A stretch of 64,000 nucleotides of DNA from a virus. This document shows, one piece after another, positions 15,026 through 23,231 of this stretch (positions within the stretch are counted from its first letter, which is position 1; each line of letters begins with the position of its first letter). Where the stretch lies: positions 42,153-106,152 of the IMG/VR virus record IMGVR_UViG_3300043777_000086. One strand, written 5' to 3'. A program made the translations under genes and the position numbers. Below the pieces are notes generated by a model. The model saw only the letters and a program-made list of their open reading frames with translations, was not told the DNA's origin and did no database searches.

Positions 15026-16615
15026 ATGCCGATAAATCCCACCATAATCTTCTGCACAACCTGCAAGGGACGCACGCAGCATTTAGCGCAGACGCTCCCT
15101 ATGAATCTTCGCGACAACGCCAACTACCCGAACTGTAAATTCGTTGTGCTGGATTACGGAGACCCTGGTGAGTTGAAGGAATACCTGAGGGCGGTTCATC
15201 CTCCTGACATTGCCAGCGGCCGCCTTAGCGTTTATCGTTTTGAGACAGAGGAGCCCTTTCATGTCTCGCACGCCAAGAACATCGCGGCCCGTTGCGGTAT
15301 TTTAGAGGGCGCTGACATCCTCGTCACGCTCGATGCCGACAACTTCACCGGGCCAGGCTTCGCGCAATACATTGCGGATCACTTTCAAGTTTTAGACTAC
15401 GCACCACCGGGGCAGTTTTTGGTCCCCAACCACCTCTACATCCAGAGCCTTCCGCACGGCCCCGGACGACCCTGCCGGGGTTTCGCCGGCCGCTTGGCGA
15501 TCCGCGCACAGGACTTCATCAAGATGGGCGGGTACGACGAGACTTACAACACCTGGCGCGGAGAGGACATCGACCTGATGTTTCGAATGATGCGTTCCGG
15601 CTACGCACTGCGGCATATCGACAACCGATTTCTGAATACGATCCCGCACAACGCCGCGGTCCGATTCAAGGAGTACCCCGAGGCTCGGCAGTACGAGAAT
15701 CCGGATGAGGTCAAGGTGATCCGCGCCCGTACGGAAACCGTCGTCAACTATGGCAAGTTTGGTATGGGAACGGTTTACCGCAACTTCAGCTCCAGACCCA
15801 TTGAACTTACTGCCGTTCCCACTAGGATCTTCGGAATCGGAATGCATAAAACCGGTACCACTAGCCTGAACGCGGCGTTTCAGATCCTCGGTTTAGATAG
15901 CCTCCATTGGGGAGCCGGTGAAGCGCCTCGGATCTGGCAGGAGATGAACTCTGGAGAATTTTCTAAGACGCTCGAGCAATGGTACGCGCTTTCCGACCTT
16001 CCAATCCCTCTGCTTTACAAGAAGCTCGATCGCGCTTACCCTGGATCGAAGTTCATCCTCACGGTGCGCAACGAGGAGAAGTGGCTCCGGAGTGTCGAAC
16101 GGCTATGGAGCCCGAGGTTCAACCCGACCAGGCACCTCTGGAACATCTGGCCGTTTAGCAACACCATCCATCGCGTGCTGTACGGACAGGATACGTTCGA
16201 CGCAGATATATTTCTTGAAAGATACCGGCGGCACAATCGAGAGGTGATAGAGTATTTCCGCCAGCGCCCGCAGGATCTACTCGTGCTAGATATGGACGCC
16301 GAGGCGAAGTGGGCGCCTCTTTGCATGTTCCTCGGATTGCGCTATCCGGCAGTCGAATTCCCTACGCAAAATCAGACTCAGGCGTTTGAGTCGCTAAAGG
16401 TATACTCTGCCCCCGAACCGTGCGATGACGTCGACAGCGATGAAGAGCTTCTCGCAAGAAGCCTTCGTGAGTACTGGAGGACCGCACCCCCAAGTGGACA
16501 GCCGACACCAACTCAGCCGATGACCACGCATCATAAAAGAAGAATGCGCCGGATCCGGCGTAGGAGAGAGGTGGAGGCTAATACCCCGATCAAGGGACCG
16601 GAGGAAATAGCGTGA
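15026..16615 (+). CDS. Glycosyltransferase-sulfotransferase fusion
   Basis: Two enzymes in one 529-residue chain. Residues 1-255 resemble a GT-A glycosyltransferase of the GT2/GT27 type: LVTLDADNFTGPGF contains the metal-binding DxD (103-105), and WRGEDIDLMFRM (177-188) matches the galactosyltransferase-type WGxED acceptor/catalytic motif. Residues 265-455 are a sulfotransferase domain: IGMHKTGTTSLNAAF (271-285) is the 5'-phosphosulfate loop, and RNEEKWLRSVERLW (349-362) carries the Arg and Ser that bind the 3'-phosphate of PAPS. A basic tail (HHKRRMRRIRRRR) follows. The next gene makes PAPS. The chain probably adds a sugar and sulfates it, or acts on two sites of one glycan; the acceptor is unknown. 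It has no signal peptide, so it acts in the cytoplasm. Confidence 0.88.
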   Translation: MPINPTIIFCTTCKGRTQHLAQTLPMNLRDNANYPNCKFVVLDYGDPGELKEYLRAVHPPDIASGRLSVYRFETEEPFHVSHAKNIAARCGILEGADILVTLDADNFTGPGFAQYIADHFQVLDYAPPGQFLVPNHLYIQSLPHGPGRPCRGFAGRLAIRAQDFIKMGGYDETYNTWRGEDIDLMFRMMRSGYALRHIDNRFLNTIPHNAAVRFKEYPEARQYENPDEVKVIRARTETVVNYGKFGMGTVYRNFSSRPIELTAVPTRIFGIGMHKTGTTSLNAAFQILGLDSLHWGAGEAPRIWQEMNSGEFSKTLEQWYALSDLPIPLLYKKLDRAYPGSKFILTVRNEEKWLRSVERLWSPRFNPTRHLWNIWPFSNTIHRVLYGQDTFDADIFLERYRRHNREVIEYFRQRPQDLLVLDMDAEAKWAPLCMFLGLRYPAVEFPTQNQTQAFESLKVYSAPEPCDDVDSDEELLARSLREYWRTAPPSGQPTPTQPMTTHHKRRMRRIRRRREVEANTPIKGPEEIA

Positions 16616-17127
16616 CGGTTTTGATGACAGGTCTACCGTGCTCTGGAAAGACGACGCTCTCCTTAGCGCTCTGTAATCTTCTACGCAACTCCGGACGCCG
16701 CGCCGAGATCCTCGACGGTGACGTGGTGCGCTTCGAGCTATGGAAGGAGCTTGGGTTCAGCCAGTCTGATCGCGAGGAAAACGTTCGCCGCCTTGGTTAT
16801 CTTGCGCGTATGCTCTCCCGGAACGGCGCTATTGCCATCATAGCGGCGGTGTCCCCCTACCGCGCCTCCCGCGACCATATCCGCAAAATATCCGACAACG
16901 GATTTATGGAGGTATACGTTAAGGCGCCTCTTTCTGTTTGCGAGACCCGCGACGTAAAGGGAATGTATGCCCAGGCGCGCGCCGGTAAGCGACCACACTT
17001 CACCGGCATCGACGACCCCTATGAGGCGCCGGTCAATCCCGAGGTAGAATGCCTAACAGATGAAGAGAGCGTCGCGGAGATCGTCGCCAAGATCGTGATC
17101 GAGCTTAAAAAGCAAGGAGCCCTCTAA
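16612..17127 (+). CDS. cysC: Adenylylsulfate (APS) kinase
   Basis: 171 residues, the usual length of single-domain CysC. The P-loop is GLPCSGKTT (7-15), followed by LDGDVVR (35-40), the APS-binding FSQSDREENVRRLGYLA (49-65), SPYRASRD (81-88) at the position of the phosphoryl-Ser loop, and the diagnostic lid and FTGIDDPYEAPVNPEV (130-145). It phosphorylates APS to PAPS, the donor for sulfotransferases. The GTG start overlaps the stop of the fusion gene (GTGA), so donor synthesis and use are translationally coupled. No ATP sulfurylase is visible, so APS must come from the host. Confidence 0.93.
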   Translation: MTVLMTGLPCSGKTTLSLALCNLLRNSGRRAEILDGDVVRFELWKELGFSQSDREENVRRLGYLARMLSRNGAIAIIAAVSPYRASRDHIRKISDNGFMEVYVKAPLSVCETRDVKGMYAQARAGKRPHFTGIDDPYEAPVNPEVECLTDEESVAEIVAKIVIELKKQGAL

Positions 17128-17954
17128 TGAACTACCGCCTCGGAAAGCGCCCGCCGGTTGTCGACGCGCGCACACTTAAATTCAGGAAGTACACTACTAC
17201 TTTACCGCCAGTTCCGCTATTAGTTGATTTCATGTCCAAGGTCCCGAGTTTCCCGATGTATCTCAATGATGTTGAGGGCGACTGTGTATGCGCCGCCGCG
17301 GGCCACATGATTCAGAACTGGACGCAGTATTCCGGCAAGTACTTCCAGCCAACCGACGCTGACATTCAGACGTTCTACGAGTTCAGCGGATTCGATCCCG
17401 GCAATCCGTCGACCGATCAGGGATGGGAACTCCTGCCTGCATTGAAGGTGTGGCGCAACAAAGGCATCGGCGGTCATAAGATCGTCGCCTTTGCGCAACT
17501 CACCACCGGAGACTTCGGGGAACTCCTGGATGCGATCCGGATCTTTGGAAATGCCTACCTGGGGTTCAGCCTTCCGGATTACGTAGTGCCCAACTCCGGA
17601 CCGGACTGGACAACCATCCGGTGGCTGTACGAAGAAGGCAACCCTCCCGATCCAAATAACGGCCACTGTGTGCCGGCTATGAAATTTTCCCTTAAAACCG
17701 CATACGGTCATCGCGTGTGGTTCGTTTCCTGGGCGGCAAGGATGGTGATGAACCCCCCGTTCTACCAAGCCTATAGCGATGAAGCCTGGGTGGCGATCAC
17801 GCAGGACTGGATAGATGCGGATGCTAAGTCTCCGAGCGGGTTCAATATGGCAGCGCTTACCGCCGACCTGGCATTAATTACCGGGAAACCGCAGGCGGCG
17901 ACCGCGATCCAACCCAAGAGTGCTGATAGAAAGAAATGGTGGAGCCGGCTATGA
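17127..17954 (+). CDS. Papain-like cysteine-peptidase-fold protein
   Basis: 275 residues. GDCVCAAAGHMIQNW (51-65) looks like the Cys-bearing helix of papain-fold enzymes; NNGHCVPAMKF (178-187) would supply His180, and WFVSWA (198-203) the strand after it. The N-terminal LGKRPP..DARTL and SKVPSFPMYLND segments recur in uncharacterised phage and soil-bacterial proteins with this layout. Activity is inferred from motif spacing only. Its ATG overlaps the TAA of the APS kinase gene, so it belongs to the sulfation operon. Possible roles: processing of a virion or host protein, peptidoglycan peptide cleavage, or an inactive binder. Confidence 0.7.
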   Translation: MNYRLGKRPPVVDARTLKFRKYTTTLPPVPLLVDFMSKVPSFPMYLNDVEGDCVCAAAGHMIQNWTQYSGKYFQPTDADIQTFYEFSGFDPGNPSTDQGWELLPALKVWRNKGIGGHKIVAFAQLTTGDFGELLDAIRIFGNAYLGFSLPDYVVPNSGPDWTTIRWLYEEGNPPDPNNGHCVPAMKFSLKTAYGHRVWFVSWAARMVMNPPFYQAYSDEAWVAITQDWIDADAKSPSGFNMAALTADLALITGKPQAATAIQPKSADRKKWWSRL

Positions 17955-18319
17955 CACCCTCTCAATTCAGAACCGATCGCAACAATAACCCCACGGCCAT
18001 GATCGTGCAGTTGGCCCAGGAAGGCGGGCTCGTTGAAGGTACCGACTACACCCAGGGGGACGCTTTCGAATCCGGAGGTAGGACCTACTACACCGCCAAG
18101 CTCCTTGGGGATCCGGTAGCCCTCACAATCAAAGTGATCGACGAAGTGGGATTCTACTCTGAACCGCCGCATGCCCGCTGGAACTACATCGCTATACCGC
18201 ACGCCCTGTGGATGAGCCTGAATACAATCCAGAAGTCTTACGTGATCGGCTGGATGTATTCACAGGAGGGTGGAGTGGCGATGAGGAATCTATTTCCGGT
18301 TGCGCCTTATAGCGCGTAA
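17951..18319 (+). CDS. Hypothetical protein, last gene of sulfation operon
   Basis: 122 residues from ATG 17951, which overlaps the preceding TGA (ATGA) and has GGAG seven bases upstream. No family recognised. The sequence is soluble and compact: an N-terminal segment FRTDRNNNPTAMIVQLAQEG, a beta region with TAKLLGDPVALTIKVID, and an aromatic C-terminal half. Tight coupling to the papain-like gene suggests the two proteins work together. It ends 21 bases before the convergent lipase gene. Confidence 0.7.
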   Translation: MTPSQFRTDRNNNPTAMIVQLAQEGGLVEGTDYTQGDAFESGGRTYYTAKLLGDPVALTIKVIDEVGFYSEPPHARWNYIAIPHALWMSLNTIQKSYVIGWMYSQEGGVAMRNLFPVAPYSA

Positions 18320-18340: not shown

Positions 18341-19015
18341 TCACGGAGCCACCGCGTTAATCGCCTGAGCGTACAGCGCAGAAGAATGCCAGGCGATCGG
18401 GTCGATGTCCTTCAGGTCCAAGAATCCGTCCGGTGCCTTAGTCACGTGCGTGAGCGGGATGTTCTTGTACGCGAATGCAGGCGGCAAAGGTAGGGGCAGC
18501 ATAGGGACTGGGTCGCCATAGAAGCCTGCCGCGTTCCTGTAATTGCGCCATTCCACTTTGGACAGGAAGTCGAGGAATGCTTGGAATCCCGGAGCTGGGC
18601 CTGCCATTCCGATTATGCGAAGCATCGAAGGATCGGGTTGGTACTGATCTAGGAAGATCGCGCCGGCTTCCGCCGCGCGTTGGCTTCCTAGGCTGTGTCC
18701 CGTTAAGGTGGTCTTCAATCCCAAGTTCAAGAGGGGGACGATCCGCGCCATCGTCTCGGGCATCCCACAGAATGATCCAGAGTGGACAGGTCCGAATCTG
18801 GCGTGCTGGTAAGGCTGTGGGTAGGCCATAAGATCCTGCAACCAATTCTGAAGCTCAGAGGGAAGCGTGCCGCGAAATACTACTACGTTCTCATCTGGGG
18901 TCAACAATACCGCACAGCATATGGAGAAGCCCTCCTCTGGGTAGTATTTGGTGAACCCCGCCGCGCCAGAGTAGATTGCGTGGCTAAGTTGCGCGGCCTG
19001 TGCGTCTGATATCAT
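18341..19015 (-). CDS. Class 3 lipase/esterase (alpha/beta hydrolase)
   Basis: 224 residues. VVVFRGT (45-50) supplies the oxyanion strand, LTGHSLGS (104-111) the nucleophile elbow with Ser108, GDPVPMLP (167-174) the acid Asp168, and IAWHSSALYAQAI (207-219) the likely catalytic His210. This is the Lipase_3 pattern. There is no signal peptide or membrane helix. The ATG at 19015 overlaps the stop of a 41-residue membrane peptide (ATGA). In a phage it could attack membrane lipids or envelope esters late in infection, so a lysis-associated role is plausible, but the substrate is unknown. Confidence 0.85.
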   Translation of the reverse strand: MISDAQAAQLSHAIYSGAAGFTKYYPEEGFSICCAVLLTPDENVVVFRGTLPSELQNWLQDLMAYPQPYQHARFGPVHSGSFCGMPETMARIVPLLNLGLKTTLTGHSLGSQRAAEAGAIFLDQYQPDPSMLRIIGMAGPAPGFQAFLDFLSKVEWRNYRNAAGFYGDPVPMLPLPLPPAFAYKNIPLTHVTKAPDGFLDLKDIDPIAWHSSALYAQAINAVAP

Positions 19016-19137
19016 GATCGCCACTGAATCGCCAGCCAACCAGCCGCCCCAAGAAGTGCCAGCAATGCAAATACAATCCAGCATGCCAGCCAGAAGCGCT
19101 GTACGTCGTTAGGGGTGTGCGGGGATTGGTGGGTCAT
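19012..19137 (-). CDS. 41-residue single-TM peptide
   Basis: Short gene with one strong transmembrane helix (WLACWIVFALLALLGAAGW), a polar N-terminus and a QWRS end. Both boundaries are overlapping start/stop junctions: TAATG with the upstream gene and ATGA with the lipase. These make it convincing despite its size. Being co-translated with a lipase, it may be a lysis or membrane-targeting partner. Confidence 0.72.
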   Translation of the reverse strand: MTHQSPHTPNDVQRFWLACWIVFALLALLGAAGWLAIQWRS

Positions 19138-20392: not shown

Positions 20393-22543
20393 TTATGGGC
20401 ACTTCACCGCTTGCCACGATGGCGTGGTCACAATCGTAAGCACCAGTGGTTTCCCGTTCGGACCAGCAGGGAAGGTCTGCGTCGTAGTCACGGCCTTGCC
20501 GGGGCAGGTCTGGTAGGTGGTTGTTGCCGGCGTAAGCGTAACCGTCGCGCTCGCGGAGACACCCGACACCGTGGCCGTAATCAAGGCCGAAGATGCTGTC
20601 GGGATGCTCGCAGGGGCCGTGTACAGCCCCGAGCTTGAGATTGCGCCGATGTTGGCGCTCCACGTCGCGCCCGATGGCGTCGCCGTGAACTGCTGCGTTT
20701 GACTGGCGCTCAAGGTTGCCGTGGAGGGCGAGATCGTCACGGTAACGGGCGTAGGCGGCGTCAGGCTGATCGTGGCCGTCGCGCTCACACCAGACGCTAT
20801 CGCCGTGATCGTCGCGGTGCTGGCGCTGGTGATCGACGCGGGCGCGGTATACAGTCCGGTCGCGGAGATTGTCCCTGTAGACGCGCTCCAAGTCACGGCG
20901 GTGCCACTCGGCGTCACTGTGGCCGTGAACTGCTGAGTCCCACCCTGCCCAAGCGTGGCGCTCGTCGGCGAGATTGTAATGCTCACAGTCGGCGGCGGGG
21001 TTGCTCCTCCGAGGTTCGCGCCGATGCCCGCAAGCGCGGTATTGCCCACAGGAAATGTCGTCAGGTTGCCGAACGTCGGGTTCAGGTTTGTGCTGCCCGT
21101 CAGGTTCTTGACTGCGGTCGGAACTCCCGCGCCGAAGAAATTGTTCGCGGCCCCGCTTACTGTACTACTGGTGGTCGTGATATCCGAGCCCGATCCGCTG
21201 CTCAAGATCTGCATGTACGGCGTCGTGCCATCCAGAATGTTCGATCCGAAATTGACCGTCCCTACGCCGCTTTCCGGGTAGTAAAGGAACTCGGGCGCTC
21301 CCCCCAAGGCTCCGTTATTGTAGAGCGTGTTGTTTTTGAATGTCGCCGCCCCGTTGCCGGTCACGGACCACGTCTGCAAATACACGCCCGCGAATGCCCC
21401 GCCATCAGGAGGTTGAGGACCTTGGCCGGTGTTATAGACCACGTTATTGTATATCTGCACTCCGGTCCCCCTGGACGCGTCCATATTCACGTAGACAATG
21501 CCGTCGCAGGCCGTGTCGTGGATGATGTTGTTCGCGATGATGACCGAATACGAGGTATCCCCGCTTACCGATGAATTTTGCTGAAAACCTCGACATCCGT
21601 TAACGTACGCAATTGTGTTCCACTCGAAGTCAAACGAAAAACTTTCGTCACCCAGGTAAAAGCCTTGCTGAAGAGCCGTAACGCTGCCTGCCGCGAGGTT
21701 CGTGCTGACGTTGTGGAGATTATTGCCATACCAGGTCGTGTTTGTCGCATTGAAGTTGCTTGCTCCTCCCTGCTCTCCGTTGGCGTAGGTCGCGGAGATG
21801 TTATTGCCAATGATCCGAATCCGCTGCGCTCCGTTCGGCCCCCAGCCCTGAATCCCTATGGCTTCGCTGCCACCACCAAGTAGCGTCAGACCGCCAATGA
21901 CCCAGTCTGTAACCGGCGTCGAAGCGCTGCCGGAAATATTCATCAGGCTAAGCGCCCCATGCCCGCACGCTGGATTGGCAACGTCTGTTCCGATAGTCAC
22001 TGTCGCATTGGGATAAGCCAAGAGTGCTTTCGGCGCAGCCTGCGTGCCCGACAGGTTCTGATTTATCTGGACGCAGTTATCGTATCCTCCGATGGCGTTA
22101 GGGTCTGGCGTCGTCGCGGTGACGTTGTTCTCGGCATAGATAATGTCACCAGGCGAGATCGAGTTAGTGGCGTGAGGGATCGTCGCCCACGGCGCAGCTA
22201 GCGTCCCAGCATTTGCATCACTTCCGCTTGTCGCTACAAAACGAAGGTTCCCAGCGCGTACCGTGAATGGAATGACATTCTGCGTCCCGGCCTGAAGTCC
22301 AATCTGGATTGACGCTACGCCCATAGGTATACTCGCCGGAACCTGAAAGGTGACCTTCGTCGGCGTCCACGTCTGACTCGCGGCTGTGATGCCCGCGATG
22401 CTGACCGCGCCTGTCGTTGATCCGAATCCTGTTCCGTAGACGCTCACGTAGGCGAGCGCGGGTCCACTGGTTATGTCGGTAAATTGAATGGTTTGGGCGA
22501 GCGCGGCGGTCGCGAACAATCCGATAAGTAAAAACCGTCTCAT
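20393..22543 (-). CDS. Secreted beta-helix protein with IPT and Ig-like domains
   Basis: 716 residues. Signal peptide 1-17 (MRRFLLIGLFATAALAQ). An IPT/TIG-like domain follows (VSVYGTGFGSTTGAVSIAG), then a right-handed parallel beta-helix from FVATSGSDANAGTLAAPWAT through repeated N-N-I-x-x-T rungs (about 105-480), as in pectate-lyase-like enzymes and tailspikes. Two bacterial Ig-like (Big_2-type) repeats come next (SITISPTSATLGQGGTQQFT, TVTISPSTATLSASQTQQFT), then a short C-terminal domain. This could be an exported glycan depolymerase or adhesin. The repeat style is common in acidobacterial secreted proteins (inference). The start overlaps the acetyltransferase stop (ATGA). Confidence 0.8.
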   Translation of the reverse strand: MRRFLLIGLFATAALAQTIQFTDITSGPALAYVSVYGTGFGSTTGAVSIAGITAASQTWTPTKVTFQVPASIPMGVASIQIGLQAGTQNVIPFTVRAGNLRFVATSGSDANAGTLAAPWATIPHATNSISPGDIIYAENNVTATTPDPNAIGGYDNCVQINQNLSGTQAAPKALLAYPNATVTIGTDVANPACGHGALSLMNISGSASTPVTDWVIGGLTLLGGGSEAIGIQGWGPNGAQRIRIIGNNISATYANGEQGGASNFNATNTTWYGNNLHNVSTNLAAGSVTALQQGFYLGDESFSFDFEWNTIAYVNGCRGFQQNSSVSGDTSYSVIIANNIIHDTACDGIVYVNMDASRGTGVQIYNNVVYNTGQGPQPPDGGAFAGVYLQTWSVTGNGAATFKNNTLYNNGALGGAPEFLYYPESGVGTVNFGSNILDGTTPYMQILSSGSGSDITTTSSTVSGAANNFFGAGVPTAVKNLTGSTNLNPTFGNLTTFPVGNTALAGIGANLGGATPPPTVSITISPTSATLGQGGTQQFTATVTPSGTAVTWSASTGTISATGLYTAPASITSASTATITAIASGVSATATISLTPPTPVTVTISPSTATLSASQTQQFTATPSGATWSANIGAISSSGLYTAPASIPTASSALITATVSGVSASATVTLTPATTTYQTCPGKAVTTTQTFPAGPNGKPLVLTIVTTPSWQAVKCP

Positions 22544-23103
22544 GCAAGCACCTCCAGGCGCAGTTTCCGCTTAATCTCCTGCTGAATTTCCCAGTCTCTC
22601 CGCAGGCAGCCGAATAGCAGTTCGTCTATTACTTCTCCGTCAATGACAAATCTAGACTTGAGCGTCCCCTCAAGGGTCATCTCGTCCTGCATATGGACTG
22701 ATGCCGGGTTACTCGACAGCGCCGATGATTCGACCCGTCTAGCATCAAGTTCCTCGAAGCATTTACGCGTGAGCATCCGCGCGGCTACGGAGCCTAATCT
22801 CTGCCCTCGATACAATTCCAGAAGGGCAAGCTCAATGAAGCATACGTTATTCGCTAGATCCTCTTCTATAACAGCCACGCCGATTGACGCCGTCTGACCT
22901 AGGCGTATCACGAATTTATGCAGTCGGAACCCTGGCTGGTGACATAGATGGTCTCCGAACATTCGGAATCTGGTAATAGAGGATTCGATGTTACCGAAGC
23001 GCTTCTCATATCCAGGTTCGGATGTGAGTACCTTCCAAATGTCATTGTACCGACGACGGTATTCAAGCGCTGGAGCGAGCGTGACTAATTGAGTCCCGAT
23101 CAT
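22540..23103 (-). CDS. GNAT-family acetyltransferase, 187 aa
   Basis: Start at ATG 23103, which overlaps the stop of a small membrane-peptide gene (ATGA). The core is CFIELALLELYRGQRLGSVA: a beta-4 strand followed by the RGQRLG acetyl-CoA pyrophosphate loop. SSNPASVHMQDEM and TLKSRFVIDGEVIDELLF follow, as in RimJ/RimL-like enzymes. It may acetylate an amino sugar or a protein. It lies immediately upstream of the exported beta-helix gene and is translationally coupled to it. The substrate cannot be deduced. Confidence 0.82.
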   Translation of the reverse strand: MIGTQLVTLAPALEYRRRYNDIWKVLTSEPGYEKRFGNIESSITRFRMFGDHLCHQPGFRLHKFVIRLGQTASIGVAVIEEDLANNVCFIELALLELYRGQRLGSVAARMLTRKCFEELDARRVESSALSSNPASVHMQDEMTLEGTLKSRFVIDGEVIDELLFGCLRRDWEIQQEIKRKLRLEVLA

Positions 23104-23231
23104 CGTGGTGATGGCGTGATGACAAATAAAATCACAGCTAGCGCGGCGATGATTAGTAAGACCGGGACCACTAGAAATGGCCACACGCTGCCATCTCCGC
23201 CCCCGCCACCTCCCCTATGTCGGTGAGCCAC
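23100..23231 (-). CDS. 43-residue Gly-rich single-TM peptide
   Basis: GTG start (AGGA eight bases upstream) overlapping the preceding TAG by one base; its stop overlaps the acetyltransferase ATG. The N-terminus is MAHRHR plus a run of six Gly, then a strong transmembrane helix (PFLVVPVLLIIAALAVILFV) and a short TPSPR end. Both junctions follow the operon's overlap habit, so it is very likely real. Function unknown. Confidence 0.7.
   Translation of the reverse strand: MAHRHRGGGGGGDGSVWPFLVVPVLLIIAALAVILFVITPSPR

Follow-up and report, generated by a model that had tools for sequence, protein, structure and literature searches.

Why should a phage carry an enzyme that appears to add both sugar and sulfate, together with a kinase that makes the sulfate donor? 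This question is raised by a 64,000-nucleotide stretch (the window) of the IMG/VR virus record IMGVR_UViG_3300043777_000086, corresponding to positions 42153-106152 of its 106,152 bases. A first-pass annotation of the window had recognized a reading frame that joins a glycosyltransferase (GT) to a sulfotransferase dependent on 3'-phosphoadenosine 5'-phosphosulfate (PAPS), followed by a gene for an adenosine 5'-phosphosulfate (APS) kinase, the enzyme that makes PAPS. The analysis reported here confirms this observation and makes the proposed chemistry likely. The domain families themselves are known; among the papers listed in our searches of open PubMed Central text we found no description of the fusion, of an APS kinase together with a sulfotransferase in phages, or of the fused and coupled arrangement, recurrent in many environmental phages, that is described below.

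The fusion protein and the overlapping APS kinase gene

The fusion is encoded by a single open reading frame (ORF; window 15026-16615, + strand) with an ATG start and 529 codons for amino acids. Its predicted layout comprises a GT-A half (residues 1-258, approximately), a sulfotransferase half (about 265-455) and a poorly predicted tail (about 456-529). Pfam places Sulfotransfer_4 (PF17784) on residues 267-454 (E 1.7e-36; 126.5 bits against a curated cut-off of 22.8) and Glyco_transf_7C on residues 153-208 (E 1.1e-8; 35 against a cut-off of 23). In the related fusion of contig L046 the latter family scores below its cut-off (17.1); we describe the GT half as GT7/GT27-like.

All the motifs named in the first pass could be located: D103-A-D105 (the DxD motif), W177-RGED-181, the 5' loop G272-MHKTGTTS-280 and the 3' site R348-NEEKWLRSVE-358. 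When 53 fusions were aligned (43-64% identity to the window protein), residues D103, D105, D181, H208, T276, T278, S280 and D324 proved invariant, and K275, R348 and S356 were kept in at least 90% of the sequences. Such conservation across related fusions indicates that the motifs are not due to chance. E180 is replaced by D in many of the 27 fusion sequences that were compared separately. One of these 27 (L002:9998-11509) carries a Cys/His-rich insertion of about 46 residues in its sulfotransferase half, which is absent from the other 26.

Comparison of both halves with known folds had been set beforehand as a check. The AlphaFold2 model, computed with the 53 relatives, has a mean pLDDT (predicted local distance difference test) of 87.9 and a pTM (predicted template modelling score) of 0.83; both halves are folded in it and the tail from about residue 456 is mostly poorly predicted. 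Aligned with VIA-align, the sulfotransferase half matches Cpz8 in complex with 3'-phosphoadenosine 5'-phosphate, PAP (9kf2; Z 19.9, root-mean-square deviation (rmsd) 2.9 over 190 residues), and SgdX2 (8y9p; Z 19.7, rmsd 2.9 over 179 residues). The GT half matches heparosan synthase 2 (8viw; Z 18.4, rmsd 3.2 over 218 residues), K4 chondroitin polymerase (2z86; Z 17.4, rmsd 3.5 over 201 residues) and the polypeptide N-acetylgalactosamine (GalNAc) transferases (Z about 16). As modelled, the protein is a GT-A fold and a PAPS-type sulfotransferase fold in one chain, in agreement with the reading frame as first interpreted. Matches between predicted and solved structures give the fold and say nothing of the substrate.

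The fusion has the fold, the 5' loop and the 3' site in common with the solved Sulfotransfer_4 enzymes (Cpz8, 9kf1/9kf2; SgdX2, 8y9p; a schistosome sulfotransferase, 4mua), and in the alignment with 9kf1 its D324 and P326 coincide with an Asp and a Pro. Each of these relatives consists of one domain of some 200-260 residues, whereas the fusion's domain sits behind a glycosyltransferase. With K4 chondroitin polymerase, Pasteurella heparosan synthase 2, the polypeptide GalNAc-transferases and beta-1,4-galactosyltransferase the GT half has in common the fold, the DxD motif, the acidic pair and a later His; its identity to them is about 11-18%, and Pfam detects no second GT or lectin domain in the fusion.

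Directly 3' of the fusion lies an ORF of 171 codons with a GTG start (16612-17127, + strand), which overlaps the fusion's stop by four nucleotides (GTGA, 16612-16615). Its product has the sequence of a canonical APS kinase: the match to APS_kinase (PF01583) has an E value of 3e-56 (190.1 bits against a cut-off of 21.1) and covers positions 3-150 of the 152 in the profile, and the closest solved chain is 5cb6 (E 1.9e-54). The nearly full-length family match, the P-loop and the LDGD motif are features that the protein has in common with CysC and with the kinase domain of PAPS synthetases. Unlike CysC, it is encoded by a phage, its gene overlaps that of a sulfotransferase, and no PAPS_reduct match is present on the record.

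The overlaps continue downstream. The TAA of the APS kinase gene and the ATG of the next one (17127-17954, + strand) have one base in common (TAATG, 17125-17129), and the end of the latter gene is overlapped by 19 nucleotides by a further one (17936-18319, + strand). The successive overlaps within 15026-18319 therefore define four genes arranged head to tail. The last-mentioned gene encodes a 127-amino-acid protein of no assigned family (no Pfam match) and is probably the final one of the run. The product of 17127-17954 has a predicted papain-like fold (pLDDT 81.0, pTM 0.82), with Xylellain (3ois) as the nearest structure (TM score 0.62, E 4.2e-8), and belongs with the phrog_19005 proteins; Cys53 and His180 are kept in 11/11 aligned relatives. 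Neither this product nor the copies from L012, L021 and L002 gave a Pfam match, and we therefore refer to the protein as papain-like and do not call it a member of a peptidase family.

We also considered whether the locus could be a join artefact or host contamination, since a junction with a host contig at 15 kb had been named as a danger. This was ruled out. The cassette is situated at about 57 kb of the record, and therefore not at its end, inside a virus record that contains portal, terminase and tail matches as well as matches to a major head protein, RecT and a helicase (the last three from nine proteins searched, six of which had no match).

Recurrence in other viral contigs

Both halves of the fusion were found on 57 contigs, of which 55 come from IMG/VR (the window included) and two (L045 and L046) from metagenome-assembled genomes (MAGs). 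The IMG/VR scans yielded one relative with the window protein as the query, 33 loci with an alignment of the pair and 70 loci with 27 sequences; the figure of 57 was obtained after removal of L040 and of repeat fetches of one contig. Among the 57, L101 is frameshifted, L078, L083 and L103 encode one protein, and L045 and L089 represent one phage; the 53-sequence alignment accordingly leaves out L078 and L103 (the same protein as L083), L089 (the same phage as L045) and L101. The fusions diverge deeply on their tree, where the median terminal branch measures 0.62 changes per column. Sulfotransfer_4 scored above its cut-off in 27 of the 30 records searched with Pfam; in the remaining three the copies are cut or truncated. 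Our scans of viral and genome sequences were keyed on patterns of the GT half and are blind to phage proteins that consist of the sulfotransferase alone; single-domain phage relatives of the sulfotransferase half were met in L171 and L184, within the set of APS-kinase loci described below.

The possibility that the fusion is a common bacterial protein was rejected, as a pattern scan of genome contigs gave 12 loci, just two of them with both halves. One of the two, L045, is of phage origin: over 9,529 bases it is 99.4% identical to the viral L089, and it has terminase and portal matches. In the other, L046, the fusion is flanked on one side by bacterial-type genes and on the other by large proteins that no Pfam family matches above its cut-off, and this copy may lie at the edge of a prophage or be chromosomal. 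Among 297 and 289 genomes of the two corresponding MAG groups, both halves were present in the two centre genomes only (E <= 1e-25, up to five candidates per genome scored); four sulfotransferase-only matches were in frames of 428-492 amino acids, the comparison covering the matched part of each frame. A tblastn search of phage records with the fusion matched the GT half once and nothing further, and in plasmids no match covered 80% of the query, the best 20 of 22 matches being to single halves.

The surroundings of the 57 loci were compared by clustering ORFs of at least 60 amino acids within 9 kb, antisense shadow frames and sibling-phage sets being left out. Shared synteny is scarce. Two families recur close by: relatives of phrog_19005, the commonest neighbour (14/57, all within 1.5 kb, the phage represented by both L045 and L089 being counted twice), and APS kinases (5/57). 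Other families are common to three to five loci and are mostly more distant. The top 25 families matched in a scan of 96 nearby proteins include terminases, replication proteins, a polymerase, proteins of nucleotide metabolism and others, each occurring once or twice. Given such diverse neighbours and no fixed module, the fusion looks like mobile phage cargo. Among its relatives we found no fixed position beside tail or fibre genes, and across the 57 loci neither a flippase nor a membrane GT was recurrent. Sugar enzymes were seen in single cases (a GDP-mannose dehydratase in L018 and a DegT aminotransferase in L093), as was a TylF/Methyltransf_24 methyltransferase (L059). In L099 a gene matching Pfam Peptidase_C1 directly follows the fusion. 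The link between the fusion and the papain-like protein is not exclusive, because in phage MW202816 a relative annotated as a cysteine protease adjoins an amidase gene and occurs without a fusion match (tblastn).

The pair formed by the fusion and an APS kinase, which it had been proposed to seek in metagenomic phages, is indeed present in further phage contigs. Its carriers are the window, the close siblings L059 and L060, L012 and L008, as determined by searching the whole record in 30 cases and the fetched stretch for the remaining loci. Each of the two main branches of the fusion tree contains carriers, and the P-loop, LDGD and FTG motifs are invariant in four APS kinase copies that adjoin the fusion. 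An APS-kinase match in the record of L002 was dropped, as it was read as a polynucleotide kinase-phosphatase. The first interpretation is therefore supported in part. The two-domain protein, its PAPS-type motifs, the APS kinase and the close overlap of the genes all hold; with carriers numbering five among 57 in the stretches fetched, however, the supply of PAPS is an optional add-on and not a constant part of the system.

To test the role of the APS kinase, viral APS-kinase loci were fetched without requiring the fusion. The first scan, with the window APS kinase as the sole query, detected no relatives. A further scan gave 10 loci; three of them (L125, L127 and L128) have the fusion by construction, five (L126, L129, L131, L133 and L134) contain other sulfotransferase-like genes, and in two (L130 and L132) the locus runs into a contig end (L131 was judged by its likeness to L129, and L134 is under the Pfam cut-off). 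A larger scan revealed at least 371 viral contigs with APS kinase relatives, of which the best 80 were kept. A sulfotransferase-like ORF, detected with profiles grown from five seeds and from the fusion's own sequence, was present within 6 kb in 41 of these 80 loci and in none of 66 controls (Fisher p 3.5e-14). The control set was made up of 54 fusion loci out of the 57 (five with an APS kinase, two from MAGs), scored without the fusion ORF itself, and 12 phage loci with a GT only; an earlier form of the test had given 41/80 against 0/21. The proportion was 37/71 among non-redundant clusters and 37/76 after removal of four fusion or seed contigs (L154, L157, L210 and L213).

Pfam searches (E <= 0.001) were then considered for 48 of the 57 sulfotransferase-like ORFs (the nine left out being repeats, the fusion, a seed and two L171 fragments), and matched Sulfotransfer_3 in 22, Sulfotransfer_2 in 18, Sulfotransfer_1 in 17, Sulfotransfer_4 in three and Stf0 in one, with overlaps between the families. 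Unlike the profiles used to find these ORFs, those of Pfam were built without the test loci. In the 30 loci with both genes that were scored by a kinase motif rule and the sulfotransferase profiles, 17 pairs lie within 200 bases. In view of this association, phage cysC often looks like a supply for sulfation. Two phage-labelled matches, H3 (judged by title) and H5 (judged by its genes, by eye), look bacterial and were set aside.

Sulfotransferases have been noted in phages before. OM43 phages carry them, and their function in phage genomes was called unclear (PMC10580990); the genes of glacier phages include a sulfotransferase as well (PMC8290583). In the excerpts of these two reports, the proteins are Sulfotransfer_3 or unspecified, and neither a GT fusion nor an APS kinase is mentioned.

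Proposed role of the fusion and its alternatives

The reading that we favour, and which we regard as reasonably probable, is that the bifunctional enzyme builds a sulfated glycan cap, and that the phage APS kinase tops up the PAPS. In the infected cell, the N-terminal GT-A domain would use a nucleotide sugar to glycosylate an acceptor, and the C-terminal domain would use PAPS to sulfate either the sugar so added or the acceptor itself. The APS kinase would convert host-made APS into PAPS, so that the donor supply would not be limiting; the kinase would in this manner provide PAPS to a sulfotransferase which is itself fused to a glycosyltransferase. The fusion is probably soluble and cytoplasmic, since neither a flippase nor a membrane GT is among its recurrent neighbours. 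Bacteria that reduce APS directly in sulfate assimilation may hold little PAPS, and such hosts would explain the presence of the APS kinase in some phages only. The acceptor is the least certain part of the scheme. It may be a virion or exported protein, a surface glycan of the host or, less probably, DNA or a small molecule; we would guess first at a glycan or glycoprotein destined for the outside of the cell (a virion protein or a host surface polysaccharide), the modification of which would alter adsorption. If the acceptor is a protein, the papain-like protein could process it.

Several points weigh against this interpretation. Both activities, and their action on one product, are predictions made here from sequence and models, the sequence match of the GT half is modest (E 1.1e-8), and the diverse neighbours of the fusion (terminase, replication, polymerase; top 25 families) give no clue to the acceptor. 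In 52 of the 57 contigs no APS kinase lies by the fusion in the fetched stretch, and phage-made PAPS is therefore not generally needed. Moreover, the APS kinase label is no more clustered on the fusion tree than shuffled labels are (four changes over 14 labelled rows, a number as low in 285 of 500 shuffles; the starred branches by themselves require two changes). As regards the association with sulfotransferases, the test loci themselves served to grow the profiles, a bias in favour of those loci; in 39 of the 80 viral APS-kinase loci the 6-kb range contains no sulfotransferase-like ORF, and no such gene was seen by eye near the APS kinase that the huge phage LR756500 encodes.

The alternatives differ chiefly in the acceptor. 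The fusion might edit a host surface glycan (lipopolysaccharide, capsule or a teichoic acid precursor) against the adsorption of a second phage, in the way of O-antigen-modifying prophage genes. A cargo-like gene with almost no shared synteny is what would be expected of such a host-directed trait, and the GT half resembles polysaccharide polymerase domains. O-antigen modification systems, however, usually include a flippase or a membrane GT, neither of which recurs among the neighbours; the papain-like neighbour would also be left unexplained, and we entertain this alternative tentatively. The same neighbour is central to another possible explanation, one to which we would give a minor share of our confidence: the fusion would decorate a phage protein (virion or exported), which the papain-like protein would mature or display. 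The occurrence of its relatives within 1.5 kb in 14/57 loci, with the Cys and His kept in 11/11, is consistent with this, as are the Peptidase_C1 gene of L099 and the likeness of the GT half to polypeptide GalNAc-transferases (Z about 16). Against it, 43 of the 57 contigs have no papain-like relative in the searched stretch, no acceptor protein recurs beside the fusion, and the relative in MW202816 occurs without the fusion.

It is very improbable, in our opinion, that the APS kinase is an ordinary assimilatory auxiliary gene which aids host cysteine synthesis and stands by the fusion incidentally. Viral cysC has been read in terms of assimilatory sulfate reduction and so classified in excerpts of two studies (PMC9611531, PMC10127799). 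In the record of L059 a gene of the PAPS_reduct family (G030:C1:16242-16757, - strand) is located some 4 kb away from the pair formed by the fusion and the APS kinase; nevertheless, PAPS_reduct matched in just 3/49 fusion records (two above the cut-off) and not in the record of the window, and both the overlap with the sulfotransferase gene and the general association of APS kinases with sulfotransferases speak against an assimilatory function. The 49 records searched for PAPS_reduct and Tet_JBP leave out L009, L010, L019, L045, L046, L078, L089 and L103.

Phage glycosyltransferases are known to act on modified bases, and in one relative (L006) a C5 cytosine methylase gene adjoins the fusion. 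Hypermodification of phage DNA with a sulfated sugar, as a means of evading restriction, is nonetheless highly unlikely, as no base-modification gene recurs near the fusion; Tet_JBP matched in 0/49 records, a search in which the control was also silent. We likewise doubt strongly that the substrate is a small molecule, such as an antibiotic or defence signal, which the sulfotransferase half would sulfate and the GT half glycosylate. The top fold matches of the sulfotransferase half are the natural-product enzymes Cpz8 and SgdX2, but the GT half is like GT-A enzymes acting on polysaccharides or proteins, and small-molecule glycosyltransferases are usually GT-B.

If the sulfated glycan cap is indeed the product, the locus offers a concrete, testable chemistry for phage genes that are now read as helpers of metabolism. 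The presence of related fusions in many other phages suggests that phages make sulfated sugars for some purpose, and points to sulfated glycans as possible players in the conflicts of phages with their hosts or with other phages. As a single chain, the fusion may also be useful as a tool enzyme.

Accompanying genes

A nucleotidyltransferase with a HIGH motif (GRWQPFHNGH-like) was detected by a motif rule within 6 kb in 18/80 viral APS-kinase loci and in 0/21 controls. Examples are L008:11239-12108, L151:5998-6846, L156:3480-4448, L172:5635-6603, L180:5926-6975 and L129:5864-6262. In several cases it directly adjoins the APS kinase or is fused to it. The L008 protein is APS-kinase-like in its N-terminal part only, which is followed by a cytidylyltransferase-like domain with a HIGH-type motif, and its likely start overlaps the stop of the fusion by four nucleotides (as counted on the translation). 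The nucleotidyltransferase is possibly a substitute for ATP sulfurylase. One may speculate, at rather low probability, that sulfation is a general phage trait, in which a minimal nucleotidyltransferase and an APS kinase would make PAPS unaided from ATP and sulfate for sulfated surface glycans; such a route, if true, would be like the two-domain PAPS synthetase of animals.

An APS kinase gene adjoining a sulfotransferase-like ORF was also seen by eye in L137 (OQ572406.1, Pseudomonas phage Y4), together with glycosyltransferase-like ORFs. This sequence contains bacterial-type genes and, again by eye, looks like chromosomal DNA.

In the window itself, the four-gene run is adjoined on the opposite strand by a class 3 lipase-like gene (18341-19084, - strand; Lipase_3, E 3.7e-9). 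Further along are a gene for an exported-looking protein of 716 amino acids with a Big_2 Ig-like domain according to Pfam (20393-22543, - strand), the style of which we take to be that of Acidobacteriota, a possible hint as to the host, and a GNAT acetyltransferase-like gene (22540-23184, - strand).

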